Assembly: GCF_003671765.1 (NCBI RefSeq)
Contig: NZ_QPIB01000012.1
Location: forward strand, 519,366-583,365
DNA length: 64,000 nucleotides
DNA from: Xenophilus sp. E41
GTDB taxonomy: Bacteria > Pseudomonadota > Gammaproteobacteria > Burkholderiales > Burkholderiaceae_C
Direction: 5' to 3'
Below the pieces are notes generated by a model. That model searched no databases. It saw only the letters and a list, made by a program, of their open reading frames with translations, and was not told where the DNA came from. Made by a program: the position numbers and the translations under genes. Positions 22,563 to 43,493 of this stretch are shown here, one piece after another. The stretch's first letter is position 1. Every line of letters starts with the position of its first letter.

Positions 22563-24617
22563 TCAGGGGATGTTGGCCGAGGTGACCTGGAAGGCGCCAC
22601 CCGGCAGACCGAACTCGCCGCCGTATTCGAAAGCGTCGCCGCCGCTGCTGCCCATGCCGCAGCCGTTGGGCGCGCCGCAGGCGCTGCCGCTGTAGTTGTG
22701 CATGATCACCGGCCCGTAGCGGTAGTTGCGCAGCGCGCGGCCGCCGTAGTCGGCCACCGAGACCACGTACGACTCGGTGCCGTGGTTGTCCGTGTCCTCC
22801 GCCGCGATCGGGTCCACCAGCCGCGCGTCCTTGAGCGTGCGCACCACCGTCCCGCCGTTGCCGGAGAAGCGCACCCACTGCAGCTGACGGTCCCCGCGCG
22901 AGGTCACGATCACCTCGCGGGTGATGTCCTGGTAGATGGCGCTGCCGGCCTTCTCCTTGACCAGCGCGATGCCCGTCGGGTTGCGGCCCACGGCCACGGC
23001 GCCGACCTCCGCGATGCTCGCAGCCGATCCGCTGCCGGCGGTGGGGTAGTCGCCCAGGTTGAAGATGTGCAGCTGCCCATCCTGCGTGGCCACCCAGGCG
23101 CGGCGGCTGTTGCCCCAGGCATAGGTCCTCACGGCCGTGGGCCGGTTGGCCATCGCCACCGTCTTGATGACGGTGGGGGTCTGCCCGGGCGCGGCGGCGA
23201 AGGTGCGCGGCCATTGCGAATCGGCCGAGCCGACCGAGGTCGTCACGCTGTAGTCCGAGTCGCTGCCGAAGTACATGCTCTGGTAGTAGGCGAACAAGGG
23301 CCGCAGGTCCAGGAAGGCCACCTTCTGCTCGGACTTTGAGGTCACCACGGCGACGCCGCCCTTGGCATAGGTGTCGAAGTTGCGGCCGCCGGATTTGAAG
23401 GTCGCGCGGTTGTTCGCGTTGCTCAGCGGCAGGGAATAGGCCTGCTCGCGCGTGCCCTCTCCCAGATAGGCGTTGCGGTCCACCCCCGTCGTGACCGAGA
23501 TATCGGTCGGCGCCTTCATGTCGGACGGCAGCGGGACGTAACCCAGCACCTTCATGTAGCCGGTGTTGCCGAGGTTGGGCAGGCCGGGATAGAGGCCGTT
23601 CCATTCGCCCCAGTAGTTCGAACCGGTGGGATTGTTCGGTGTGCAGCCTTCGCACAGGCCGGCCAGCGCCACCACGGCGACCTCGCCGCGCAGGTTGACC
23701 GTGTCCCACACGGTGATCAGGGCGAACTCGTTGCTGTTGGTCACCGCCACCGCCGTCGGCACCTTGCCCGACGCCAGCTGCGCACTGGCCTTGTTGGTCG
23801 AGGTGTCGGTCTGCGCCGAAGCGATGAAGCCGCTGTCGAACACCATCAGGCTGTTCATGCACCAGCCTGGGCGGCCCGCGCATCGGGCCACACCGACCGG
23901 ATTGCCGACCGCCCCGCCGGACGCCCGGTAGGCGGCGCCGTTGACCTCGTCAAGCCCCCCGCCGTAGTACACCCACCTCAGCTCGGGCCGCTGCGAGAAG
24001 ACCGCGTTGCTCACCGAGCTGATCGCCACGTCGGCCACGCCCACGCGCTGCGCCGGCACATCGGGAATGAAGGCGACATGGCCGTTGTTCGACGAGAAGT
24101 CGCCGATGTTGTTGCTCCATGCGCCCACTTGCCAGGTGCCGCAGGCGATGGGGTCGCAGGGGCGCTGCCCGCCGCTGCGGTCGGACACGAAGGCATTGTC
24201 GTTGCGCTTGAACCAGGTGGGCACGCCGTCGTTGCCCGTGGTCCCGTACGCCGACGGCGCCGGCCCATAGCGGTAGTCGATGCCCCCGGCCTTGCCCATG
24301 GCCGCTGCCACGGCGCGATAGGCGGCCGCGTCGACCGTGGTCGTTCCGCCGGTCAGCGGGTCCGGGGTGCCGGCCGCAGGCGCGGGCGCTGCCGCGCCGG
24401 ACCCCGACCCAGAACCCGAAGCCGTTCCCGATCCGGTCGCCGGGGCGCTCGTCCCGCTCGCCGCGCTTTCACTTCCCGACGGCGTCCCCGCCGAAGAACC
24501 GGCGGCCACCGCGGCGAGGCCGATGCCTCCTCCGCCGCCACCACCACCACCGCCACCACAGGCCGTCAGGATCATGCCTGCCACGACCAGGGACCCTCCA
24601 AGCGTTATAACTTTCAT
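22563..24617 (-). CDS. putative surface lipoprotein, propeller-like, paralogue 1
   Basis: A 684-residue protein with a lipoprotein signal (LVVAGMILTACGG; lipidated Cys20). After the Cys come about 11 glycines and a Ser/Gly/Ala/Pro-rich linker to about residue 90, then a globular part of about 590 residues. That part contains repeated short segments such as PTAVAVTNSNEFALITVWD and REVIVTSRGDRQLQWVRF that look like blades of a YVTN-type beta-propeller, plus four paired cysteines (CDPIAC, CAGRPGWC, CEGC, CGAPNGC) suggesting disulfides. I recognise no named family. A close paralogue lies at 26159-28156 beyond pepP. It is probably anchored in the outer membrane. Confidence 0.85.
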   Translation of the reverse strand: MKVITLGGSLVVAGMILTACGGGGGGGGGGGIGLAAVAAGSSAGTPSGSESAASGTSAPATGSGTASGSGSGSGAAAPAPAAGTPDPLTGGTTTVDAAAYRAVAAAMGKAGGIDYRYGPAPSAYGTTGNDGVPTWFKRNDNAFVSDRSGGQRPCDPIACGTWQVGAWSNNIGDFSSNNGHVAFIPDVPAQRVGVADVAISSVSNAVFSQRPELRWVYYGGGLDEVNGAAYRASGGAVGNPVGVARCAGRPGWCMNSLMVFDSGFIASAQTDTSTNKASAQLASGKVPTAVAVTNSNEFALITVWDTVNLRGEVAVVALAGLCEGCTPNNPTGSNYWGEWNGLYPGLPNLGNTGYMKVLGYVPLPSDMKAPTDISVTTGVDRNAYLGEGTREQAYSLPLSNANNRATFKSGGRNFDTYAKGGVAVVTSKSEQKVAFLDLRPLFAYYQSMYFGSDSDYSVTTSVGSADSQWPRTFAAAPGQTPTVIKTVAMANRPTAVRTYAWGNSRRAWVATQDGQLHIFNLGDYPTAGSGSAASIAEVGAVAVGRNPTGIALVKEKAGSAIYQDITREVIVTSRGDRQLQWVRFSGNGGTVVRTLKDARLVDPIAAEDTDNHGTESYVVSVADYGGRALRNYRYGPVIMHNYSGSACGAPNGCGMGSSGGDAFEYGGEFGLPGGAFQVTSANIP

Positions 24618-24644
24618 CCTACTAAATAAAGTTCCAAATAACTA

Positions 24645-24674
24645 TTTGTACATTGGCTCCCGTCCTACAGGCAA
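24645..24674 (-). promoter_or_regulatory. candidate sigma-70 promoter of lipoprotein paralogue 1
   Basis: On the minus strand TTGCCT (24674-24669) and TACAAA (24650-24645) are separated by 18 bp in a strikingly AT-rich stretch. The -10 box lies about 28 bp upstream of the ATG at 24617. The AT-rich 127-bp gap must also hold the divergent pepP promoter, for which no clear pair was found. Confidence 0.45.
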
Positions 24675-24744
24675 ACATCCTTGCAAATCTTTTCCGAGTC
24701 GTTGTGGAAATGCGGCCGAGTTGTTACGTACGTATAGTCAGTCC

Positions 24745-26130
24745 ATGAACAGCGCCCTCTACGCACAACGCCGCGCCCGCCTGGCGGCGCAACTCGGCCC
24801 GGACGGCATCGCGATCGTGCCGACGGCGCCCGAGCAGCCGCGCAACCGCGACACCGATTTCCTGTATCGGCACGACAGCTACTTCTATTACCTGACCGGC
24901 TTCACCGAGCCCAACGCCTGGCTGGTGCTGGCGGGCGACGGCCGCGCCACCCTGTTCTGCGCACCCAAGGACCTCGAACGCGAGATCTGGGATGGCTACC
25001 GACTCGGGCCCGAGGCAGCGCCGGCCGCCCTCGGCGTCGACGAGGCCGTCTCCGTCGCCACGCTCGACACCACCCTGCCCCGGCTGCTGGAGAACCGCGG
25101 CACCGTCTGGTATCCCTTCGCCACGTACCCGGGGCTGGAAACGCGGGTGGACGGCTGGCTGCAGAAGGTGCGCGCCCGCGTGCGCTTCGGCGCCCTGTGC
25201 CCCGAGCAGCAGCGCGACCTGTGTGGCCCGCTCGACGAGATGCGCCTGGTCAAGGACGCGCACGAGCAGGACATCATGCGCCGCGCGGCCGACATCAGCG
25301 CGCGCGCGCACGTCCGGGCGATGCAGACCTCGGCCCGCATGCTGCGCGCCGGTCAGGACGTGCGCGAATACCACCTGGACGCCGAGCTGCTGCACGAATT
25401 CCGCCTGGGTGGCTCGCAGTACCCGGCCTACGGTTCGATCGTGGCCGCCGGTGCCAACGCCTGCGTGCTGCACTACCGCGCCGATGCGGCCCCGGTGCGG
25501 GCCGGCGAGCTGGTGCTGATCGACGCCGGCTGCGAGCTCGACGGCTATGCCAGCGACATCACGCGCACCTTTCCCGCCGACGGCAGGTTCACCGGGCCGC
25601 AGCGCGCGCTGTACGACCTGGTGCTGGCGAGCCAGGACGCGGCGGTGGCAGCGACACGTGCGGGCCAGCGCTTCAACGACCCGCACGAAGCGACCGTGAA
25701 GGTGCTGGCGCAGGGCCTGCTCGACCTGGGCCTGCTCGACGCGAACAAGGTGGGCTCGGTGCAGGACGTGATCGACAACCGCAGCTACTTCCAGTTCTAC
25801 ATGCACCGCACGGGCCACTGGCTGGGCATGGACGTGCACGATTGCGGCAGCTATGTGGAGCCCACGCAGGTGGGCGAAGTCAGCGAACGCAAGGACCCGC
25901 TCTCGGGCGAGCTCATCAAGAACCGGCCCAGCCGCATCCTGCAGCCCGGCATGGTGCTGACCATCGAGCCCGGCCTCTACGTGCGGCCCGCCGAGGGTGT
26001 GCCCGAGCAGTTCCACAACATCGGCATCCGCATCGAGGACGACGCCATCGTGACGGAGAACGGCTGCGAACTGATCACGCGCGGCGTGCCGGTCCATGCC
26101 GACGAGATCGAGGCGCTGATGCGCGAGTGA
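24745..26130 (+). CDS. pepP: Xaa-Pro aminopeptidase
   Basis: A 461-residue M24B metallopeptidase that removes an N-terminal residue preceding proline. An AMP_N domain occupies about 1-140 (FLYRHDSYFYYLTGF), followed by a pita-bread catalytic domain. Metal ligands are visible in LIDAGCELDGYASDITRTFP (two Asp), HRTGHWLGMDVHD (His), TIEPGLYV (Glu) and IRIEDD (Glu). There is no signal peptide, so it is cytosolic. It lies between the two lipoprotein paralogues and is divergent from the first and convergent with the second, an arrangement consistent with insertion of a duplicated lipoprotein gene around it. Confidence 0.95.
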   Translation: MNSALYAQRRARLAAQLGPDGIAIVPTAPEQPRNRDTDFLYRHDSYFYYLTGFTEPNAWLVLAGDGRATLFCAPKDLEREIWDGYRLGPEAAPAALGVDEAVSVATLDTTLPRLLENRGTVWYPFATYPGLETRVDGWLQKVRARVRFGALCPEQQRDLCGPLDEMRLVKDAHEQDIMRRAADISARAHVRAMQTSARMLRAGQDVREYHLDAELLHEFRLGGSQYPAYGSIVAAGANACVLHYRADAAPVRAGELVLIDAGCELDGYASDITRTFPADGRFTGPQRALYDLVLASQDAAVAATRAGQRFNDPHEATVKVLAQGLLDLGLLDANKVGSVQDVIDNRSYFQFYMHRTGHWLGMDVHDCGSYVEPTQVGEVSERKDPLSGELIKNRPSRILQPGMVLTIEPGLYVRPAEGVPEQFHNIGIRIEDDAIVTENGCELITRGVPVHADEIEALMRE

Positions 26131-26158: not shown

Positions 26159-28156
26159 TCAGGGGATGTTGGCGGACACGACCCGGAAGGGTCCGCCGGG
26201 CAGGGCGAATTCGCCGCCGTACTCGAAGGGGTCTCCGTTGCTTCTTCCCATGCCGCAGCCGCTGGGAGCGGCGCAGGCGCTGCCGCCGTAGTTGTGCATG
26301 ATCACCGGCCCGTAGCGGTAGTTGCGCAGCGCGCGGCCGCCGTAGTCGGCCACCGAGACCACGTACGACTCGCTTCCGTGGTTGTCCGTGTCCTCCGCCG
26401 CGATCGGGTCGACCATGCGCGTGTCCTGCAGGGTGCGCACCACCTGCCCGCTGTTGCCGTTGGCGGCAAAGCGCACCCATTGCAGTCGCCGGTCGCCGCG
26501 CGAGGTGACGATCACCTCGCGGGTGATGTCCGGATAGACGGCGTTGCCGGCCTTCTCCTTGACCAGCGCGATGCCCGTCGGATTGCGGCCCACGGCCACG
26601 GCGCCGACCTCCACGATGCTCGCGGCCGATCCGCTGCCGGCGGTGGGGTAGTCGCCCAGGTTGAAGATGTGCAGCCGTCCGTCCTGCGTGGCCACCCAGG
26701 CGCGCCGGTGGGTGCCCCAGGCATAGGTCTTCACGGCCGTGGGCGGGGCGCCCATCGCCACCGTCTTGATGACGGTGGGGGTCTGCCCGGGCGCGGCGGC
26801 GAAGGTGCGCGGCCATTGCGCGTCGGCGGGGCCGACCGAGGTCGTCACCCCGTAGTCCGCCTCGGTGCCGAAGTACATGCGCTGGTAGTAGGCGAACAAG
26901 GGCCGCAGATCCAGGAAGGCCACCTTCTGCTCGGACTTGGAGGCCACCACCGCGAGGCCGGCCTTGGCGTAGCTGTTGAAGTTGCGGCCGCCGGACCGGA
27001 AGCTCGCGCGATGGGCCGCGTTGCTCAGCAACAGGTCGTACGTCGACTCCCGGCCGGGAACGCCGGCCGGCAGGTAGGCTTCCCGGCTCAGGCCCGTGGT
27101 GACCGAGATGTCCGTCGGCGCCTTCATGTCCGCCGGCAGCGGGACGTAGCCCAGCACCTTCATGTACGCGGTGTTGCCGAGGTTGGGCAGGCCGGGGTAG
27201 AGCCCCTGCCACTCGCCCCACCATGAGCTGGGCGAAGCCGGCTTGGCCGGCGTGCAACCTTCGCACAGGCCGGCCAGTGCCACCACGGCGACTTCGCCGC
27301 GCAGGTTGACCGTGTCCCACACGGTGATCAGGGCGAACTCGTTGCTGTTGGTCACCGCCACCGCCGTGGGCACCTTGCCCGGCGCCAGCCGGGCACTGGC
27401 CTTGTTGGTCGAGGTGTTGGACTGCGCGAAGCCGATGAAGCCGTTGTCGAACACCATCAGGCCGTTCATGCACCAGCCGGGCCGGCCTTCGCACCGCGCC
27501 ACGCCGACCGGGTTGCCGATCGGCGCACCGGCACGGCGGTACGCGAGGGCGTTGATCTCGTCCAGGCCACCGCCGTAGTAGACCCACATCAGCTCCGGTC
27601 GCTGCGAGAACACCTCGTTGCTGGTCGAGCTGATCCCCAGGCCGGCCATGCCCAGGCGCTGCGATGGCGACTCCGGGATGTAGGCGACGTGGCCGACGTT
27701 GGAGGCGAAGTCCCCGACCTCGTTGCTCCACGTGCCGACCTGCCATGTGCCGCAGAAGGCCGGATCGCAACCGCGCTTGCCGCCCTGGCGATCGGACACG
27801 AAGGCATGGTCGGCGCGCTTCGACCAGGTCGGCAGGCCGTCGTTGCCGGTGGTGCCGTAGGCCGAGGGCGCGGGACCGTAGCGGTAGTCGATGCCGGCGG
27901 CCTGGCCCATCGCGGCCGCCATGGCACGGTAGGCGGCGGCGTCGTCGACGCTGAAGGCACGCTGTGCGCCCCCGCTGCCGACCGGCGTTGTCCTCTCGGT
28001 GTTTCGCGCCGCGGGGGCCTGAGCCACCGTCGTCGATCCCGTCCCGGCCGCGTGCGCCGCGGCCATGCTCGGCGGCGTGCCGACCGCGACGCCGCCGCAG
28101 GCGGCCAGCGCGATCCCCGCCACCACCAGCGTCTTGCCCATGCCCATTGCTTGCAT
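26159..28156 (-). CDS. putative surface lipoprotein, propeller-like, paralogue 2
   Basis: About 665 residues from the ATG at 28156 (MQAMGMGKTLVVAGIALAAC); ATGs 3 and 5 codons later are also possible. A lipobox LAAC precedes a short Ala/Thr-rich linker, without the poly-glycine run of paralogue 1. From about residue 75 on it aligns without large gaps to paralogue 1, keeping the four cysteine pairs (CDPAFC, CEGRPGWC, CEGC, CAAPSGC) and long stretches of identical DNA. No known domain is recognised. Both copies end in SANIP just before their stops. Confidence 0.85.
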   Translation of the reverse strand: MQAMGMGKTLVVAGIALAACGGVAVGTPPSMAAAHAAGTGSTTVAQAPAARNTERTTPVGSGGAQRAFSVDDAAAYRAMAAAMGQAAGIDYRYGPAPSAYGTTGNDGLPTWSKRADHAFVSDRQGGKRGCDPAFCGTWQVGTWSNEVGDFASNVGHVAYIPESPSQRLGMAGLGISSTSNEVFSQRPELMWVYYGGGLDEINALAYRRAGAPIGNPVGVARCEGRPGWCMNGLMVFDNGFIGFAQSNTSTNKASARLAPGKVPTAVAVTNSNEFALITVWDTVNLRGEVAVVALAGLCEGCTPAKPASPSSWWGEWQGLYPGLPNLGNTAYMKVLGYVPLPADMKAPTDISVTTGLSREAYLPAGVPGRESTYDLLLSNAAHRASFRSGGRNFNSYAKAGLAVVASKSEQKVAFLDLRPLFAYYQRMYFGTEADYGVTTSVGPADAQWPRTFAAAPGQTPTVIKTVAMGAPPTAVKTYAWGTHRRAWVATQDGRLHIFNLGDYPTAGSGSAASIVEVGAVAVGRNPTGIALVKEKAGNAVYPDITREVIVTSRGDRRLQWVRFAANGNSGQVVRTLQDTRMVDPIAAEDTDNHGSESYVVSVADYGGRALRNYRYGPVIMHNYGGSACAAPSGCGMGRSNGDPFEYGGEFALPGGPFRVVSANIP

Positions 28157-28259
28157 GGCGAAAGTGTCCCGTCGATGGAACCGACCGTCCAGCAAAGCCC
28201 CGCCGAACCCACGGCCGCCCGACAGGCGTCGCCCTGCCGCACAGCGCAAGCGCCTGCGA

Positions 28260-33613: not shown

Positions 33614-35272
33614 TCAGGCGGCCGCCCCGACACCGGCGAGGTGCCCGCGCGTGAAGGCTTCCTCGAAGATCGAATAGCCCGCCCAGTCGCCGTGCGCGAA
33701 GGCCAGCCGACCCTGCACTTGGACGGCGCGCTCCTGATTTGATAGCGGACCGCGCCCGTGGGGCGGGCGCAAATGGCCGATTCGGCTCAAGAGCCCGGGG
33801 GTGGGAATGGCCATCGCGTGGCCGTAACGCGTGATGTCGATGCGCGTGGCGAGCCGTGGCAGGTCGGGGTGCGGCACCGACAGCTCGGCCAGCAGCTCGT
33901 CGCGCCACGCGCTCCACGGCGCGTCGAGCAGGCGACGGCGCCCCTCGGCGGCCGTGGCCCCGTCGAAGCCACTGGGGCCGAGTGGCCGGTACCAGCTCAG
34001 CACCGTGGCACGCGGCGTCGGGTCCAGCGCCTGGTGGCGCGCGTCGACGTAACCCAGGCCGCGCGTGCCGTAGACCACGTTGTCCCAACTCGGCGCGGCG
34101 CCGGGCCGGTCCTGCAGCGGTGCGCGCAGGTGCACGTTGGCCACCAGCCAAGGCGCGTACTGCAACGCTGCGGCGGCCTGCCGCAGGACATCCGGTGCCT
34201 GCTCCACCACGCGCGCAGCGATGAAGGCGGGCAGGGCGACGATGCAGCGCTCGGCCTGCCAGCGCACGACGCGACGCGTGGCGGCATCCCAGGCGTCGAC
34301 CTCGACCCCGTGCCGCGTTTCGGCGATGCGCAGCACCGCATGGCCGGTGCGCAGGCGCTCGCCCAGCGGCGCCGCCAGCCGCTGGGTGAGCCAGCCATTG
34401 CCTTCGGGCCAGGTGAGGACGGCGTCGCGCTCGCCGCCCTCGGCGCTCGGGTCGCCTGGCGGATGGAAGCCGTGCCGGCTGGCGAAGTAGTGGATGCCGG
34501 CCCAGGCCGACACGTGCGCGATGCCGGCGCCGTAATCGTCGCGGCAGCAGTAGTCGAGGTACCAGCGCAGCTGCGGATCGCTCAGCCCCTCGCGCTCGAG
34601 CCAGGTGGCGAAGGGTTCGGCGTCCAGCGCCATTGCCACCGCCATCGCATCGGCCGTGGCCGGCGCGCGGAAGGCGGGAATGGTGAAGTGCGCCTCGCGC
34701 TGCAGCGCGTCGACGCGCTGTGCGAAGCGGCGGTACTGCGCCAGCGTGCCGGCGTCCACGCCATGCAGGGGCAACAGGCCGTCCTGCCACTCGCCGCGGA
34801 AGAACAGCCGCTCCTGCGGGCTGTGGCACAGGTGGCGCTCGTCGTATTCCCAGCGGCCGGCGACGCGGCGGCGCAGGCCCAGTTCCTCGAGCAGGTCCTG
34901 CACCTCGTGCGCAGGGTCCCCGGGCGTCGGCAGGTAGTGCGCGCCCAGCGGGCAGGCGATGCCATGCACGCGGCCGCCGCGGGCGTTGCCGCCGGCGCCG
35001 TCCTCCAGCTCGAGCAGCACGAAGTCGTCGGTGCCGGCCAGGCGCAGCGCCCGCGCTGCGGCCAGCCCGGCCACGCCGCCGCCGGCGACCACCACGCGCG
35101 TGCGGCGTGTCTCGGCCGGAACGGCGCCGCGGCCGGCACCGTCGCGCCAGGCATGGCCGCGCGCGACGTCGATGCCGGTAAAGCCGCCGTCGATGGGCGG
35201 GCTCGATTCGCAGCCGGCCAGGGCCAGCGCGCCGGCGGAGGCGCCAATGAAATCGCGGCGGCGCAACGTCAT
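33614..35272 (-). CDS. Tat-exported FAD-dependent amine oxidase-like lipoprotein
   Basis: A 552-residue flavoprotein. The N-terminus MTLRRRDFIGASAGALALAG followed by Cys combines a twin-arginine signal with a lipobox, so a folded FAD enzyme should be exported and anchored. The dinucleotide motif VVVAGGGVAGLAAARALRLAG is cut here as VVVAGGGVAGLAAARAL, and C-terminal FAD-binding residues (FAHGDWAGYSIFEEA) are present. The architecture is that of amine oxidases and protoporphyrinogen oxidase relatives. It follows the SpeE-like gene by 7 bp, so polyamine or aminopropyl compounds are plausible substrates. A family A repeat lies antisense in its 3' part (residues about 494-513). Confidence 0.88.
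   Translation of the reverse strand: MTLRRRDFIGASAGALALAGCESSPPIDGGFTGIDVARGHAWRDGAGRGAVPAETRRTRVVVAGGGVAGLAAARALRLAGTDDFVLLELEDGAGGNARGGRVHGIACPLGAHYLPTPGDPAHEVQDLLEELGLRRRVAGRWEYDERHLCHSPQERLFFRGEWQDGLLPLHGVDAGTLAQYRRFAQRVDALQREAHFTIPAFRAPATADAMAVAMALDAEPFATWLEREGLSDPQLRWYLDYCCRDDYGAGIAHVSAWAGIHYFASRHGFHPPGDPSAEGGERDAVLTWPEGNGWLTQRLAAPLGERLRTGHAVLRIAETRHGVEVDAWDAATRRVVRWQAERCIVALPAFIAARVVEQAPDVLRQAAAALQYAPWLVANVHLRAPLQDRPGAAPSWDNVVYGTRGLGYVDARHQALDPTPRATVLSWYRPLGPSGFDGATAAEGRRRLLDAPWSAWRDELLAELSVPHPDLPRLATRIDITRYGHAMAIPTPGLLSRIGHLRPPHGRGPLSNQERAVQVQGRLAFAHGDWAGYSIFEEAFTRGHLAGVGAAA
33735..33791 (+). repeat. family A repeat inside the FAD oxidase gene
   Basis: gatagcggac, the hairpin cgcgcccgtggggcgggcgc and ggccgattcggctcaag match the order of the intergenic copies. 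Here the repeat lies within a coding sequence and is translated in frame on the other strand as about 19 residues (RIGHLRPPHGRGPLSNQE). Confidence 0.65.
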
Positions 35273-35279
35273 CGGGCGC

Positions 35280-36863
35280 TCAGTGGGTGACCCCGACCTT
35301 GCCCCACTCCTGCTCATAGGTCGTGACCAGCACCTGGTTCGACAGCCGGTTGACCTCGGCCGGCACGCGCGCCATGTCCTTGGGGAAGTCGAAGAGCAGG
35401 GGCAGCGTGTCGACCGTGAGGAAGCGCAGGCCCGCCGGCAGCGTGTCGGGCCGGCGCCAGGGGCGGTGGCTGGCGATGATGTAGCCCCACTCGCCGAAGC
35501 TCGGCACGTGCGCGTGGTAGGGCGTGGCCACGAGGCCGACCGACTCGATGGTCTGCGCCACGGTCCAGAAGCTCTTGCGCGCCACCAGCGGCGAGGTGGT
35601 CTGGATCACCGCGTAGCCGCTGGCGGCCAGGCGGCGGTCGAGCAGCGCATAGAAGCTGTTGGTGTAGAGCTTGCCGATGGCGAAGTTGGTGGGGTCGGGG
35701 AAGTCGACCACGATGACGTCGAAAACGTCGTCAGCTTCCTGCAACCACTTGAACGCATCGGTGTTGACGACCTTCACCTTGGGTGAGGAGAGCGAGTGGC
35801 CGTTGAGCGCGGCGAGCGTCTCGTGTCCGGTGAAGAGTTTGGTCATGTTCGGATCGAGCTCGACCAGCGTGACCGATTCGACCGAGGGGTACTTCAGGAT
35901 CTCGCGCACCGCCATGCCGTCGCCGCCGCCGAGCACGGCTACCTTCTTCGGTGCGCCGTGCGCGGCCATGACGGGGTGCACCAGCGCCTCGTGGTAGCGG
36001 TACTCGTCGCGCTCGGCGAACTGCAGGTTGCCGTTGAGGAACAGCCGGTGCCCGGCCCCACCGCGCGTGACGACGATGCGCTGGTAGGGCGAGGTGGCGG
36101 CGAAGACGATGCGGTCCTGGTAGAACTTGTCTTCCGCCAGGGTGGTGATGCGGTCCGAAAAGGCGAAGGCGGCCGCCAGCGCCGCCAGCGTGAGCACGCA
36201 GGCCAGCGCGTGCGCCCCGAGGCGGCGCAGTTCGTGCCGGAACAGCCACAGCGCCCAGGCGCCCACGGCGGCGTTCATCAGGCCGAAGAGCAGCCCGGTG
36301 CGGATCATGCCCAGCTGCGGTACCAGCAGCAGCGGAAAGGCCACCGACACCGCCAGCGCACCGAGGTAGTCGAAGGTCAGCACCTGCGAGACCAGGTCCT
36401 TGAGCACGATGTCGCGCCGCAGGATGCGCATGACCAGCGGGATCTCGAGCCCCACCAGCGTGCCGACCACCACCACCAGGCCGTACAGCAGCAGGCGGAA
36501 GGCCCCGGGCACGTAGGCGTTGGCGATGAACAGCAGCGCCGGCAGGAAGCCGCCAACGAGCGCGACCATGAGCTCGATGCGCAGGAAGTGCGCGGGCAGC
36601 TGGCGCTCGAAGTAGCGCGACAGCCACGAGCCCACGCCCATGGCGAAGAGGTAGGTGCCGATGATGGTGCTGAACTGCAGCACCGAGTCGCCGAGCAGGT
36701 AGGAGCTCAGCGCCGCCGCGCTCAGCTCGTAGACCAGCCCGCAGGCCGCGACCACGAAGACGCTGGCGAGCAGGGCGATGGCGACGGGGGAGGGGCCGCC
36801 GCGGCGAACGGGTACGGCGGGCAGCGCGGCCGCCTCGGGCGGCGGCGCGTTGGGGTCGTTCAT
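35280..36863 (-). CDS. speE: membrane-fused spermidine synthase (SpeE-like aminopropyltransferase)
   Basis: A 527-residue protein. The first 30 residues are Pro/Ala-rich; seven transmembrane helices follow to about residue 235, then a complete aminopropyltransferase domain (about 250-520). Seen: YRYHEALVHP, the decarboxylated-AdoMet loop VLGGGDGMAVREIL, the acidic VELDPN and VVDFPDP blocks. Soluble SpeE is about 290 residues, so this is the long membrane-fused form. It uses the product of SpeD (21408-21797). It sits in a compact minus-strand operon between DUF350 and the Tat FAD oxidase, implying polyamine chemistry at the membrane. Confidence 0.93.
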   Translation of the reverse strand: MNDPNAPPPEAAALPAVPVRRGGPSPVAIALLASVFVVAACGLVYELSAAALSSYLLGDSVLQFSTIIGTYLFAMGVGSWLSRYFERQLPAHFLRIELMVALVGGFLPALLFIANAYVPGAFRLLLYGLVVVVGTLVGLEIPLVMRILRRDIVLKDLVSQVLTFDYLGALAVSVAFPLLLVPQLGMIRTGLLFGLMNAAVGAWALWLFRHELRRLGAHALACVLTLAALAAAFAFSDRITTLAEDKFYQDRIVFAATSPYQRIVVTRGGAGHRLFLNGNLQFAERDEYRYHEALVHPVMAAHGAPKKVAVLGGGDGMAVREILKYPSVESVTLVELDPNMTKLFTGHETLAALNGHSLSSPKVKVVNTDAFKWLQEADDVFDVIVVDFPDPTNFAIGKLYTNSFYALLDRRLAASGYAVIQTTSPLVARKSFWTVAQTIESVGLVATPYHAHVPSFGEWGYIIASHRPWRRPDTLPAGLRFLTVDTLPLLFDFPKDMARVPAEVNRLSNQVLVTTYEQEWGKVGVTH

Positions 36864-36878
36864 GGCAAGGAGCCTCGA

Positions 36879-36939
36879 CCGTTCGGGCCGAGCCTGTCGA
36901 AGCCCTGGCGCGGCGCTTCGACAGGCCCGGCGTGAACGG
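36879..36939. repeat. palindromic intergenic repeat between DUF350 and speE
   Basis: Two 25-bp arms (36879-36903 and 36915-36939) are inverted with three mismatches around an 11-bp loop; the cores are gcctgtcgaagc and gcttcgacaggc. This cgttcg..gcctgtcgaagc type is a common bacterial intergenic palindrome. It would form a strong hairpin in the operon mRNA and could adjust downstream expression. Confidence 0.8.
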
Positions 36940-36944
36940 CTGCG

Positions 36945-36966
36945 GGGTGGCCGGCGCCGGCCACCC
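36945..36966. terminator. perfect 22-bp palindrome at the DUF350 stop
   Basis: gggtggccggc-gccggccaccc is fully self-complementary and begins at the base next to the DUF350 stop codon. There is no U-tract, so it may attenuate, or protect mRNA ends, rather than fully terminate before speE. Confidence 0.5.
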
Positions 36967-37188
36967 TCAATGGATCGCTGCGGCGACGATGATGCTGATG
37001 CCCAGGCACATGGCGGCCACCACCATGGCCAGTGCCTTGTTGTGCTTCTCGACGATCTCGCCCCACAGGTCGTAGGGCGTGATCTTGTCGATGACGATGA
37101 AGGCGATCCAGAAGATCGCCACGCCGATCAGCGCATACAGCAGGGTGCCCAGGATCGCCATTGGCTGGAGCCATTCGATTTTCGGCAT
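36967..37188 (-). CDS. DUF350 family membrane protein
   Basis: A 73-residue integral membrane protein with two helices (ILGTLLYALIGVAIFWIAFI and LAMVVAAMCLGISIIVAAAI) joined by a charged loop ITPYDLWGEIVEKHN. This matches DUF350/YjfL-like proteins; some relatives are two or three times longer because of duplication, and this is the single-unit form. The function is unknown. It sits in the middle of the SPFH-DUF4178-DUF350-SpeE operon, 39 bp after DUF4178. Confidence 0.9.
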   Translation of the reverse strand: MPKIEWLQPMAILGTLLYALIGVAIFWIAFIVIDKITPYDLWGEIVEKHNKALAMVVAAMCLGISIIVAAAIH

Positions 37189-37227
37189 GCGGTCTCTCCG
37201 GTGGAAGGTTGGGGTGTGCGCGGGGCG

Positions 37228-38718
37228 CTACTTGTGGCCGCCGCCGCTCGAGTAGCCGCCGTAGGAGCCGCCCGAGCTGCGGTAGCCGCTGCCCGAGGAG
37301 CTCGAGCAGGTGGACAGGATGATCAGCAGGATGATGATCACCACGACGATGAGGATGATGGTGCCGCATCCCAGGCCGGACGCGGCGCTCACGGGCAGCG
37401 CATCGGTGCGCTTGAACATGTCCTTCTTCGCATCGAGCTTGAAGGCCGACGCCACCGCGTTGCTGTCGATGCGGCTGCCGTAGGACCAGGTCAGCTCGTT
37501 GGCGCTGCGCTCCATCGACAGCAGGCCGCCCTTGGGTTCGCCGTAGTCGCGGTTCTGCGTCTTCTGGCCGCGCTGCACCTGCCAGTAGAACTCGCCGGCG
37601 ACATAGGTGGTCTCGGCGTCGTAGGCGTACTGCTGCTTGTAGACGCGGCCCAGGTAGCGCGCGGTCTGCCCGCCTTCGGAGACGACCGGCGCGCCGGTCG
37701 CGGGCTTGACCATGCTCCAGCCGTCGCTGGCGTCGACCAGGAAGCTGAAGCCGCGCTTGTTGTTGTAGAGCAGGTATTCATCCCAGCCGAAGTGCTCGTC
37801 GTCGCCCGGCTCCTGGCCCATGCGGTGCTGGAAGCCCACCACCTGCCACTGCGCGCCTTGCAGCATGCCGAGCGTGCCCAGCGCGATGAGCGGCTGCACC
37901 GGCTCGTTCTGCGTCGCGTACTTCAGCTCGCCGCCGATGCCGCTGCTGGTGTCGATGATGCTCTTGCACGCCGGGCACGTGACGCTCTTGCTGTCGGCGA
38001 AGTTGAGCGTGACCGGCGAGCCGCAGTTGGGGCAGGTGAAGCTTCGGCCTTTCTCTTCCTTGGCGGACTCGTCGCGCAGGCCGGCCATCTTCAGGTCGTC
38101 GAGTTCGACCGAGCGGCCCAGGTACGCGGTGGGCGGGGCCGAGTCGTAGTCCAGGCTCAGGACCAGGCCCTTCTCGTTGCGCAGCTCGACGACGCGGAAG
38201 GGCTTGCCCAGCTCGGGCAGGCGCGGCAGTTCGCCCTGCGCCGACACCAGCTTCACCTCCTCGTTGGAGGCAACGGTGTAAGCCTGCCCGTTGAAGGTGT
38301 GGGTGGCGCCCACGCGCAACTGGTCGGCGGCCGGCGCGGGCTGCTGCAGCGCGTAGGGCAGCGAGAAGACGTAGGCGCCGTTGTCCTCGCTCAGGACGCC
38401 GGTGCGATCGTCGGTGCCGTCGATCTGGGCGACCCACTCGGTCCAGCGGCCGCCCTCGTAGGCGTACTGCAGGCGGCCGACGAGGGTGAAGGCCTTGTCC
38501 TGGATGCGGCCGGTGGCAAAGAGCTGCAGCGGGCTGAAGTCGTCGAAGAGCTCCGCCATCTTGCCGATGCGCGCGAGCTGCTCGCCCTGGCGCACGACGG
38601 TGCTCTGGCAGTACGGGCAGACGGCAAAGGCCGACTGCGCCGAGCGGAACTCGACCGGCGCGCCGCAGCCGGGGCAGGGCGCGCGGTAGGCACGTTGCGT
38701 GCCGCCCGGCTCAGCCAT
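37228..38718 (-). CDS. DUF4178 zinc-ribbon membrane protein
   Basis: A 496-residue protein. The N-terminal zinc ribbon has Cys15, Cys18, Cys34 and Cys37; a first DUF4178 unit follows (about 60-215), then a second zinc ribbon (CPNCGSPV..CPAC, about 228-248) and a second DUF4178 unit (about 270-430). Near the C-terminus is one hydrophobic helix (GTIILIVVVIIILLIILS), then a Ser/Gly/Tyr-rich tail. So two ribbon-DUF4178 modules are tethered to the membrane. The function is unknown; relatives lie beside SPFH, DUF350 and aminopropyltransferase genes, as here. Confidence 0.9.
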   Translation of the reverse strand: MAEPGGTQRAYRAPCPGCGAPVEFRSAQSAFAVCPYCQSTVVRQGEQLARIGKMAELFDDFSPLQLFATGRIQDKAFTLVGRLQYAYEGGRWTEWVAQIDGTDDRTGVLSEDNGAYVFSLPYALQQPAPAADQLRVGATHTFNGQAYTVASNEEVKLVSAQGELPRLPELGKPFRVVELRNEKGLVLSLDYDSAPPTAYLGRSVELDDLKMAGLRDESAKEEKGRSFTCPNCGSPVTLNFADSKSVTCPACKSIIDTSSGIGGELKYATQNEPVQPLIALGTLGMLQGAQWQVVGFQHRMGQEPGDDEHFGWDEYLLYNNKRGFSFLVDASDGWSMVKPATGAPVVSEGGQTARYLGRVYKQQYAYDAETTYVAGEFYWQVQRGQKTQNRDYGEPKGGLLSMERSANELTWSYGSRIDSNAVASAFKLDAKKDMFKRTDALPVSAASGLGCGTIILIVVVIIILLIILSTCSSSSGSGYRSSGGSYGGYSSGGGHK

Positions 38719-38754
38719 GGCGCAAGTACGGCGCTGCCGGCCGGGACTTCAAGC

Positions 38755-38810
38755 GTTTTGTGGCCGCAGCGCCCGTCCCGCCGGCGCGAGCCGCTATCGA
38801 AAACATAGCA
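38755..38810 (-). repeat. intergenic repeat family A
   Basis: Read on the minus strand: tgctatgttttcgatagc, then gctcgcgccggcgggacggg, gcgctgcggcc and an aaaacgcttgaa tail. It fills the gap between the SPFH and DUF4178 genes of the operon. Confidence 0.8.
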
Positions 38811-38819
38811 GTCGGCGAC

Positions 38820-39866
38820 TCAGACGAGCTTCTTGAGCAGCTCGGCCTTCTTGGCGTCGAACTCTTCCTGCGTGAGGATGCCCTTGGTCTTGAGCTCGCC
38901 CAGCTTCTCGAGCGTCGCCATGACCTCGTTCGGGCTCACCGTGGCGGGCGGTGCGGTGGCGGCGACGGCGGCCTGCGCGGCGGCATTGGGGTTCAGGCCC
39001 TGCTGGAGGTTCTGCGCCAGCACCTGGCCCAGCGCCACGCCGGCGCCCAGGCCCATCGCGTCGCCCGCGATGCCGCCGCCCTGGCCCGCGCCCTCGGCGA
39101 ACTTGGGAATGGCCTGCGCCGTCTGGTACTGCATGAACTTGCCCATGTCGTTGCCGACCATGCCCATGCCGATCTTCTGGTCGAGGATCTTCTGCAGCTC
39201 CTCGGGCAGCGAGACGTTCTGGACGGTGATGGTCTCGAGCTTGACGCCGATCTTGGCGAATTCGGGGTTCAGCTGCGCCGCCAGTGCCTTGGCAAACTCG
39301 ATCTGGTTGGCCGCCAGGTCGAGGAAGGGCACGCCGCTGGCCGCGATGGCGGTGCTGATGTTCTGCAGCACCAGGCCGCGCAGCTGGCCGTCCAGGTCGG
39401 CCACGGTGTAGGTGTCGCGCGTGCCCGAGATCTCGGTATGGAAGAGCTTCGGGTCCGCGATGCGGAAGGCGTAGTTGCCGAAGGCGCGCAGCCGCACGGC
39501 ACCGAAGTCCTTGTCGCGGATGGTGATGGGCTGCGGCGTGCCCCACTTCTGGTCGACCTGCTGGCGCGTGCTGAAGAAGTAGACGTCGCTCTTGAAGGGC
39601 GACTCGAAGAGCTTGTCCCAGTTCTTGAGGTACGTGAGGACGGGCAGAGTCTGCGTCGTCAGCTTGTACATGCCTGGGCCGAAGACGTCCGCCACCTGGC
39701 CCTCGTTGACGAAGACGGCCATCTGCGACTCGCGCACGGTGAGCGAGGCGCCGTTCTGGATCTCCATCTCCTGCATGGGGAAACGCCAGGCGAGCGTGCC
39801 GTCGCCGGTTTCCGTCCACTGGATGATGTCGATGAACTGCTTCTTGATGAAATCCATCAGGGCCAT
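38820..39866 (-). CDS. SPFH domain protein with C-terminal SHOCT domain
   Basis: A 348-residue protein. An SPFH (prohibitin/stomatin-like) region spans about 30-250 (MAVFVNEGQVADVFGPGMYK, then LRGLVLQNISTAIAASG); a Gly/Ala/Gln-rich linker follows, and a SHOCT domain ends the protein (KLGELKTKGILTQEEFDAKK). This is the bacterial SPFH group once labelled virion-core-like. Such proteins oligomerise on membranes and scaffold partners. The ATG at 39866 has a GAGGAG ribosome-binding site. It is the first gene of the five-gene minus-strand operon, divergent from maeB. Confidence 0.92.
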   Translation of the reverse strand: MALMDFIKKQFIDIIQWTETGDGTLAWRFPMQEMEIQNGASLTVRESQMAVFVNEGQVADVFGPGMYKLTTQTLPVLTYLKNWDKLFESPFKSDVYFFSTRQQVDQKWGTPQPITIRDKDFGAVRLRAFGNYAFRIADPKLFHTEISGTRDTYTVADLDGQLRGLVLQNISTAIAASGVPFLDLAANQIEFAKALAAQLNPEFAKIGVKLETITVQNVSLPEELQKILDQKIGMGMVGNDMGKFMQYQTAQAIPKFAEGAGQGGGIAGDAMGLGAGVALGQVLAQNLQQGLNPNAAAQAAVAATAPPATVSPNEVMATLEKLGELKTKGILTQEEFDAKKAELLKKLV

Positions 39867-42600: not shown

Positions 42601-43014
42601 ATGGCGTTTGCCGCCTCGATCTCGTCCAAAGTCTCCAAGTTTGCGCTCACTGGCGTTTTCGTGGCGGCCCTCGGCGGGATCCTGGGGCCGAGCCACTCCG
42701 TCCAAGCCCGGGAATTCCCGGCCCAGGACGAAACGATCGCGCTGTCGCAATTGCCTCTCCAAGGTCAGACCACGTACCGCGCGATCTTCGACGGCGGCCC
42801 GTTCCGGCATGACAAGGACGGCACCGTGTTCGGCAACCGGGAGCGTCTGCTTCCGCGCGAGCGGCGTGGGCACTACCGCGAATACACCGTGGACACGCCG
42901 GGTGCGCGCACGCGCGGCGCCCGTCGCATCGTGTGCGGCGGCCCGCCGACGACGCCGCAGGCGTGCTGGTACACGGCGGACCATTACGCGAGTTTCAGGA
43001 AGATCGTTCCATGA
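42601..43014 (+). CDS. secreted guanyl-specific ribonuclease (RNase Sa/barnase-like)
   Basis: A 137-residue protein. A signal peptide ends about residue 36 (SVQA). The mature enzyme matches microbial ribonuclease Sa: HYREYTVDTPGARTRGARRI holds the catalytic Glu94, Arg105 and Arg109, and ADHYASF the catalytic His128. Cys112 and Cys122 may pair. It cleaves RNA after guanine and would be lethal if active in the cytoplasm. The downstream gene encodes a barstar-family inhibitor whose ATG overlaps its stop (ATGA), the expected toxin-immunity coupling. Confidence 0.93.
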   Translation: MAFAASISSKVSKFALTGVFVAALGGILGPSHSVQAREFPAQDETIALSQLPLQGQTTYRAIFDGGPFRHDKDGTVFGNRERLLPRERRGHYREYTVDTPGARTRGARRIVCGGPPTTPQACWYTADHYASFRKIVP

Positions 43015-43493
43015 CGGACGATCGCACAGGCAGGGGTGACGCACCCACGCGTTCGGGAGAAGTTTTGATCACCATGGAAAGAACAGCGGAGATGAATCAG
43101 TCCCTTCGTGGCGTTCGGCCCAACATCGTTCAGTCGATTCGGGCCTTTCGCGTCAGCGACCTTCAGGAGGCGGCCCACGCATCGGGCCAGCACTTCCTCT
43201 ATGCCAACCTGGCGAACGCCCAGAGCAAGCAGGACGTGCTCGACCTGATCGCGCAGCAGTTCACCTTCCCGGCGCACTTCGGCAAGAATTTCGACGCGCT
43301 GTACGACTGCATGACCGATCCCTTGCACAAATCGGGCCCGCAGCCGGGCTTCGTCGTGGTGCTCGAGCAGATCCCGGCCAATGCCAAGTTCGACAAGGAA
43401 GCGCGCGAGCAGCTCCTGGACATCTTCCGCGACGCCTCGGACTACTGGGGCGACCGCAAGGTGCCCTTCCGGTGCTTCTATTCTTTTCTGTAG
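43011..43493 (+). CDS. barstar family ribonuclease inhibitor
   Basis: 160 residues from the ATG overlapping the ribonuclease stop; an ATG at 43074 would give the usual, shorter barstar length and is an alternative. The core QQFTFPAHFGKNFDALYDCM corresponds to the barstar helix that plugs the RNase active site, with acidic Asp95 and Asp99 at the positions of barstar Asp35 and Asp39. It lacks a signal peptide and so protects the cytoplasm before the enzyme is exported. It is a cognate pair with the ribonuclease upstream. Confidence 0.93.
   Translation: MTDDRTGRGDAPTRSGEVLITMERTAEMNQSLRGVRPNIVQSIRAFRVSDLQEAAHASGQHFLYANLANAQSKQDVLDLIAQQFTFPAHFGKNFDALYDCMTDPLHKSGPQPGFVVVLEQIPANAKFDKEAREQLLDIFRDASDYWGDRKVPFRCFYSFL

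Follow-up and report, generated by a model that had tools for sequence, protein, structure and literature searches.

The 64,000-nucleotide window analysed here (Xenophilus sp. E41, contig NZ_QPIB01000012.1, positions 519,366 to 583,365; coordinates below are those of the window) carries five consecutive minus-strand genes at 33614-39866, each with a family match over the Pfam or NCBIfam cut-off. They encode an SPFH protein with a SHOCT domain, a DUF4178 protein, a small DUF350 membrane protein, an aminopropyltransferase fused to a membrane domain (TM-SpeE) and a flavin adenine dinucleotide (FAD)-dependent protein with a twin-arginine translocation (Tat) leader. At a probability of about 0.5, the genes are read as an envelope aminopropylation module built of two blocks, with the SpeE enzyme outside. 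The catalytic domain of TM-SpeE is probably located on the outer face of the inner membrane, as judged from charge distribution and fold. A preliminary description of this DNA, made from its letters and open reading frames, had listed the same genes and families, as well as seven helices, a GGGDG motif, zinc ribbons and an RR-signal with lipobox (MTLRRRDF...LAGC), and all of these were present in the sequence.

TM-SpeE matched Spermine_synth in Pfam (6.3e-38, 130.6 bits against a cut-off of 22.9) and the NCBIfam polyamine aminopropyltransferase NF002956 (688 bits against 472), and the GGGDG motif lies in its sequence. Of 91 sequences, at least 98% share residues D315, D387, D390 and Y290. By motif, these correspond to the catalytic residues of spermidine synthase (SpdSyn) that keep the aminopropyl group in place, take a proton from the acceptor and bind the amine at its other end (PMC10146546, PMC4356361). 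The earlier proposal of an aminopropyltransferase on a membrane domain was therefore borne out by the family scores and the conserved Asp and Tyr, with catalytic residues that appear intact. The nearest solved proteins by sequence were aminopropyltransferases from T. thermophilus and of the thermospermine type. These soluble enzymes (1uir and 3anx from T. thermophilus; thermospermine synthase, 6bq2) have the catalytic core and the key Asp and Tyr in common with TM-SpeE, whereas the latter has in addition a membrane lobe, a Cys-poor domain, a D-[FL]-P-D-P gate motif and a GEWG loop. The pocket loop was similar in alignments to that of the long-substrate enzymes (1uir, 6bq2), which does not decide the acceptor. 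With PADLOC, mad2 was matched weakly by the SpeE domain and still more weakly by the FAD protein.

Averaged hydropathy located seven helices in the membrane part. Topology was compared in 92 homologues from 95 sources, those at contig edges, with low scores or without the motif being left out. In all 92, loops 2-3, 4-5 and 6-7 had more lysine and arginine than loops 1-2, 3-4 and 5-6. The pattern did not change with narrow or wide loop limits, and under the wide ones about one positive residue remained in each of the outer loops 3-4 and 5-6. The seventh transmembrane helix (TM7) was strongly hydrophobic, with a median of 2.21 and 97% of sequences at 1.6 or above, and its flank charge was +2.4 on the N-side and -2.1 on the C-side, the N-side being the more positive in 92/92. 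The loop charges and TM7 would place the catalytic domain outside even when the weakly hydrophobic TM2 is disregarded.

The fold of the membrane part points the same way. The model of residues 1-250 had a predicted local distance difference test score (pLDDT) of 93.8, and DSSP wrote TM5 and TM6 as one helix. Using VIA-align, residues 18-211 were superposed onto the C-lobe of FLVCR2 (319-514) with Z 19.8 and 2.5 Å over 186 residues. Other lobes of the major facilitator superfamily (MFS) followed close behind, and the 50 top rows were nearly all MFS by title. Foldseek returned mostly MFS carriers with weak E-values, and the profile of the domain gave nothing at E <= 1 against Protein Data Bank (PDB) sequences. 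The six-helix lobe fold of the superfamily was found, in a chain of seven helices instead of the usual twelve. Since MFS lobes start and finish on the cytoplasmic side, TM7 would lead outward. The earlier wording that SpeE acts "at or across the membrane" could thus be narrowed, by charge pattern and fold, to probably the outer face. Near-invariant residues of the membrane part were E46, E97, E140, R146, D165 and N197; among the acids, E97, E140 and D165 were present in 92/92 homologues and E46 in 90/92. By their sequence conservation these acids would suit a path for a cation, while the shared fold by itself shows no transport.

The cysteine content of the catalytic region was also compared. 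It was 0.10 per 100 aa in TM-SpeE, with none in 72/92 sequences, against 1.8 per 100 aa in the same region of 25 soluble SpeE proteins, none of which was Cys-free. This agrees with an outside location, as a hint from a weak test. Large membrane proteins with a mid-chain SpdSyn-like domain, Cys-poor and with 4-6 helices before it and several after, were also seen at loci L143, L144 and L147.

The FAD gene usually follows TM-SpeE directly, and its product carries a Tat leader and, in most cases, a lipid anchor. In the window the best start is 35272, yielding MTLRRRDFIGASAGALALAGC, and the protein matched Amino_oxidase (PF01593; 9.9e-20, 71.7 bits against 19.8). Orthologues were aligned from 63 of the 71 sources with a FAD match. 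The Tat-type leader noted earlier stood up in this set: RR occurs in the first 32 residues of 59/63, and a strict lipobox in 42/63, with several more having G-C after other residues and six (L034, L108, L117, L119, L120, L124) having no Cys at the site. The window protein has both the RR motif and the lipobox of a Tat lipoprotein, and is predicted from these to be exported. In a profile search of the PDB, putrescine oxidase (2yg6) was nearest (5.1e-13), then monoamine oxidase (MAO) B (2.9e-12), over approximately the first 350 residues.

A flavin-proximal lysine is typical of MAO, polyamine oxidase (PAO) and LSD1. No alignment column had Lys in over half of the 63 orthologues, and position 379, which we take by motif to be the expected MAO/PAO lysine site (the PDB profile alignments end at about 352-361, so its exact place is unaligned), was Asn in 61/63. 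Residues H485, R244, D245 and D246 were present in 63/63. Since there is no conserved Lys, the previous term "amine oxidase" holds for the fold only, and "polyamine oxidase" as a demonstrated activity was rejected. On its sequence, the protein is a divergent flavoenzyme: it has the fold of flavin amine oxidases (putrescine oxidase 2yg6, MAO-B) by profile but differs from them in lacking the conserved Lys and in having a Tat leader and Asn379.

The functional set includes speD, which was absent from the earlier five-gene list. SpeD, an S-adenosylmethionine (AdoMet) decarboxylase, is encoded on the plus strand of the same window, 11.8 kb from the cluster, and is the sole PF02675 match in the genome (87.5 bits against the 25-bit cut-off; just below the NCBIfam cut-off, 74.3 against 75.65). 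The genome (5.84 Mb, 100% complete) contains one Spermine_synth gene, TM-SpeE itself. With one SpeD and one Spermine_synth, decarboxylated AdoMet has one possible user, as far as PF01564 tells. A PF01276 decarboxylase is also present, while a PF02784 match was identified as diaminopimelate decarboxylase. PF04012 gave 0 PspA matches in the genome, the same search being positive in 9/14 control genomes; CesT/Tir was not searched. In a related genome (G082, locus L129), SpeE and SpeD matches occur in one 448-aa frame elsewhere, besides a TM-SpeE cluster.

Conservation of the neighbourhood was examined in a phylum-wide sample of 150 genomes. In 15 of them, match ranges and open frames were read as a membrane-fused SpeE of this kind. 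DUF4178 was found in 10 genomes (E <= 0.001; 9 over the cut-off), always within 3.8 kb of TM-SpeE, and the FAD protein in 3 (E <= 1e-15), adjacent to it each time. Because these two proteins are rare and yet always this close, the cluster is not a product of chance. DUF350 occurred in 14/15 TM-SpeE genomes versus 24/135 others, and SpeD, anywhere in the genome, in 13/15 versus 22/135. The SPFH group was present in 18/150, including 5 of the TM-SpeE genomes, 3 of them with it in the neighbourhood. The recurrence of DUF350 and DUF4178 with aminopropyltransferases, stated in the preliminary description, is already in print (PMC11237479).

The best 80 of at least 579 relatives from named genomes were also analysed, counting loci with enough flank. 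The FAD gene lay within 2.5 kb of TM-SpeE in 53/65 loci, DUF4178 within 4.5 kb in 48/61, DUF350 within 3 kb in 43/61 and SPFH within 5.5 kb in 42/61, while SpeD was within the retrieved stretch in 22/48. By title, the relatives include Comamonadaceae, other Betaproteobacteria, Acidobacteria, Gemmatimonadetes, Elusimicrobia, Fibrobacteres, Nitrospinota and Corallococcus. The neighbourhood is thus conserved across genera and phyla; its absence across genera had been named beforehand as a result that would refute the proposal. In four loci of Acidobacteria and Gemmatimonadetes (L115, L119, L120, L124), the collinear order is SPFH-SpeD-DUF4178-DUF4178-DUF350-SpeE-FAD, which makes SpeD part of the set; in L034 it is SPFH-DUF4178-DUF350-SpeE-FAD-SpeD. 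Distant loci were also read for additional conserved genes next to the core; the clusters read there were overlapping frames, ordinary neighbours in Dechloromonas-type loci or PspA-type partners (L035-L038, L042-L045).

Gap lengths were measured at those 36 loci of L047-L097 in which all genes were found in the same orientation and the start of SpeE could be placed; gene starts were chosen by script, and some small or negative gaps are artefacts of this choice. Median gaps at the SPFH/DUF4178, DUF4178/DUF350, DUF350/SpeE and SpeE/FAD joints were 70.5, 70, 106.5 and 4.5 bp, and gaps above 300 bp occurred in 2, 0, 15 and 4 loci, respectively. Of the 15 long DUF350/SpeE gaps, 7 exceeded 2 kb, while the SpeE/FAD gap was at most 60 bp in 27/36. 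Inserts at the DUF350/SpeE joint include DNA methylase and ResIII genes in L071 (Pfam) and L096 (by similarity to L071), and TonB receptors in L055 (Pfam) and L066 (by reading). The "short gaps" of the preliminary description hold for the window, where the same joints measure 101, 39, 103 and 7 bp; the 103-bp one, often long in relatives, contains a hairpin resembling repetitive extragenic palindromic (REP) elements. It folds to -74.9 kcal/mol (z -5.7, 200 shuffles), and its core motif, allowing up to 2 mismatches, has 33 copies in the genome, 19 of them in forward and 14 in reverse orientation, against 0 for the motif written backwards as a control. Because of this loose joint, two tight blocks that stay neighbours, scaffold and SpeE-FAD, are likelier than one operon. 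The single five-gene unit suggested before is doubtful, and a single operon as settled fact was rejected on gap lengths and hairpin. The restriction-modification-like inserts (L071, 3663-9965; L096, 4559-9971) come from two genera, and the joint looks like an insertion spot.

In the proposed mechanism, SpeD, recognised by its family match, would produce decarboxylated AdoMet in the cytoplasm, and TM7 is predicted from charge and fold to position the intact aminopropyltransferase domain on the outer face. TM-SpeE may dimerise like soluble SpeE, in which case the two lobes would make an MFS-like, acid-lined path, and the cationic donor or the amine acceptor could reach the outer active site. The aminopropyl group would then be added to an extracytoplasmic amine, either a polyamine or an envelope amine, and the FAD protein may act next on the product, in the same compartment. 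From their context, SPFH-SHOCT, DUF4178 and DUF350 could be a cytoplasmic-side membrane scaffold or sensor replacing the PspA of related systems. A more specific form, with a homodimer of MFS lobes carrying decarboxylated AdoMet or the amine, a periplasmic enzyme aminopropylating an envelope amine and the Tat FAD enzyme oxidising it, is tentative, falling a little short of an even chance.

Several observations weigh against an outside enzyme in a coherent module. Decarboxylated AdoMet is not known to have an exporter. The hydrophobicity of TM2 is weak, reaching 1.6 in 21% of sequences, although the sidedness argument does not need it, and the 92/92 counts are consistent observations and not 92 independent cases, because most sequences are close relatives. 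None of the Foldseek matches to the membrane domain reached E <= 0.001, and the first three rows by E-value were ZIP transporters at a root-mean-square deviation of 15 Å. Soluble SpeE proteins of the same family and order (L129, L018) have just 2 and 1 Cys in the region. Per 100 aa, the SPFH protein, presumably cytoplasmic, has 0.11 Cys, the FAD protein, predicted to be exported, has 1.1, and a further 11 SpdSyn-like domains fused to membrane helices have 0.21, with only 7/11 of these placed outside by a rough count; given these controls, Cys depletion was dropped as proof of location. In gene content, DUF350 lies on a different contig from TM-SpeE in G052 and G057, and SpeD is beside TM-SpeE in 8 genomes, being distant or on other contigs in the remainder. 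The recurrence of this SPFH group with aminopropyltransferases, stated in the preliminary description, held for 5 of its 18 genomes, the other 13 having no TM-SpeE of this kind. No FAD match was found in 9/65 loci (L059, L067, L102, L105, L106, L107, L109, L113, L121), several of them being of Dechloromonas type with SpeE alone.

Three other explanations were weighed. TM-SpeE may be an ordinary spermidine synthase, with a cytoplasmic catalytic domain and a membrane part that anchors it or exports spermidine. The intact catalytic residues, the name of NF002956, the cytoplasmic origin of the donor and the PF01276 decarboxylase, which makes putrescine or a like diamine plausible, all fit this, but the charge pattern in 92/92 homologues and MFS-lobe parity place the domain outside, and a 2019 study by Li reportedly found neither spermidine nor complementation with similar fusions; we consider it unlikely. 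About equally improbable is that the genes form a stress unit like the phage shock protein (PSP) system, as proposed by Ravi, in which polyamines or aminopropylation on the cytoplasmic side tune the membrane via an SPFH or PspA scaffold, with the FAD protein as an accessory. It draws on the PspA-CesT, DUF350, DUF4178 and 7TM-SpeE context published in PMC11237479, and on PspA at the related L036 locus where the window has SPFH and its genome no PspA match. It leaves the topology and the Tat FAD enzyme beside SpeE unexplained, and the scaffold block is separable from SpeE-FAD; otherwise it is compatible with envelope aminopropylation.

The long DUF350/SpeE gaps, the unrelated inserts and the hairpin at that joint could also mean that SPFH-DUF4178-DUF350 and SpeE-FAD are merely neighbours with separate functions. 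This is the least probable of the three, since among the 150 genomes DUF4178 occurs solely near TM-SpeE, and both blocks hold order and strand across phyla.

Related systems have been described before. MFS-SpdSyn fusions accompanied by AdoMet decarboxylase and DUF350 were reportedly studied by Li in 2019; the decarboxylase is said to have been functional with no spermidine formed, the fusions to have failed to complement an E. coli spermidine synthase mutant, and an acceptor other than putrescine to have been proposed. These systems reportedly have the membrane-fused aminopropyltransferase, SpeD and DUF350 in common with the window, which differs by one six-helix lobe with TM7, an enzyme predicted outside and an additional Tat FAD enzyme. 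In P. aeruginosa, the surface spermidine genes PA4773-PA4775 encode SpeD and SpeE and are tied to envelope protection; in this they resemble the module, but reportedly with a soluble SpeE. Ravi (2024) describes PspA-CesT/Tir operons with 7TM-SpeE, DUF350, DUF4178 and a Ctha_1186-type lipoprotein, proposes a polyamine or aminopropylation link to membrane state, and mentions that one variant of a related ATP-grasp group combines Band7-SHOCT, AdoMet decarboxylase and polyamine oxidase (PMC11237479). Compared with that PspA-CesT/Tir group, the module likewise has TM-SpeE, DUF350, DUF4178, a membrane-scaffold partner and a lipoprotein. It differs in having SPFH-SHOCT and no PspA match in the genome, a Tat FAD lipoprotein beside SpeE, a short DUF350 protein where that text gives 8 TM, and a two-domain DUF4178 protein with zinc ribbons.

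Given the descriptions of Ravi and, reportedly, Li, the module is not categorically new. What this analysis adds is a modelled membrane part made of a single six-helix MFS lobe and TM7, with the enzyme predicted to lie outside, and the exact gene content and this placement go beyond what the available text of PMC11237479 describes. Phrase searches for a spermidine synthase or aminopropyltransferase described as periplasmic, extracellular, membrane-bound or transmembrane gave no report, and one combining decarboxylated AdoMet, periplasm and aminopropyl gave no relevant paper by title, subscription papers being mostly outside the scope of both.

Envelope aminopropylation, if true, would mean periplasmic use of an AdoMet-derived donor. 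With the catalytic side outside, this donor would have to cross the membrane, and products would be sought among periplasmic and lipid amines instead of polyamines of the cytoplasm. Outside catalysis could also explain why spermidine was reportedly not found in such bacteria; the targets of membrane-fused aminopropyltransferases are a question reportedly raised by Li in 2019. The present genome is a clean case, with one SpeD, one Spermine_synth and no PspA match, and the tie of DUF4178 to TM-SpeE (10/10 genomes in the sample of 150) gives that family a context.

The remaining genes of the cluster (Table 1) were identified by Pfam matches over the cut-off: Band_7_1 (1.5e-78) and SHOCT (1.9e-8) for SPFH, DUF4178 over two stretches (2.3e-30) and DUF350 (3.8e-14), the last protein having two hydrophobic stretches as judged by eye. 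The DUF4178 protein contains two zinc ribbons with two CxxC each, which Pfam ribbon models match below the cut-off only. C229, C232, C248 and C251 of the second ribbon are invariant in 35 aligned sequences, and the protein ends in a hydrophobic C-terminal helix followed by a Gly/Ser tail. Its model (pLDDT 87.4) is beta-rich with zinc ribbons. Among solved chains it had no clear relative: Foldseek matches were of low probability, and the best VIA-align score was Z 5.3 (Spindlin). Foldseek rows for a toxin-binding domain and a mucin were dismissed as noise because of their low probability.

Table 1. Position of the module genes, their parts and speD within the window.
Feature	Position	Strand	Basis
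SPFH (Band_7_1) protein with C-terminal SHOCT, 348 aa	38820-39866	-	Pfam
DUF4178 protein, 496 aa, two DUF4178 domains	37228-38718	-	Pfam
DUF350 membrane protein, 73 aa	36967-37188	-	Pfam
DUF350-SpeE gap with REP-like hairpin	36864-36966	-	Folding and motif count
TM-SpeE, whole gene, 527 aa	35280-36863	-	Pfam, NCBIfam
TM-SpeE membrane part, aa 1-236: six-helix MFS-type lobe and TM7	36156-36863	-	Hydropathy, model
TM-SpeE aminopropyltransferase domain, aa 245-527, predicted extracytoplasmic	35280-36131	-	Residues, charge
FAD-dependent amine-oxidase-fold protein, 552 aa, Tat signal and lipobox (MTLRRRDFIGASAGALALAGC)	33614-35272	-	
Twin-arginine leader of FAD protein, aa 1-20; lipobox Cys is residue 21	35213-35272	-	
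SpeD, AdoMet decarboxylase, 129 aa	21408-21797	+	PF02675

Elsewhere in the window, two paralogues of about 690 aa, 74% identical, are encoded on the minus strand at 22563-24617 and 26159-28249, flanking a plus-strand peptidase-like frame at 24337-26130; the one at 22563-24617 had no Pfam match at 1e-5. A Barnase-type ribonuclease (PF00545, 2.5e-22) followed by barstar (PF01337, 1.5e-29) is encoded at 42601-43493 on the plus strand.

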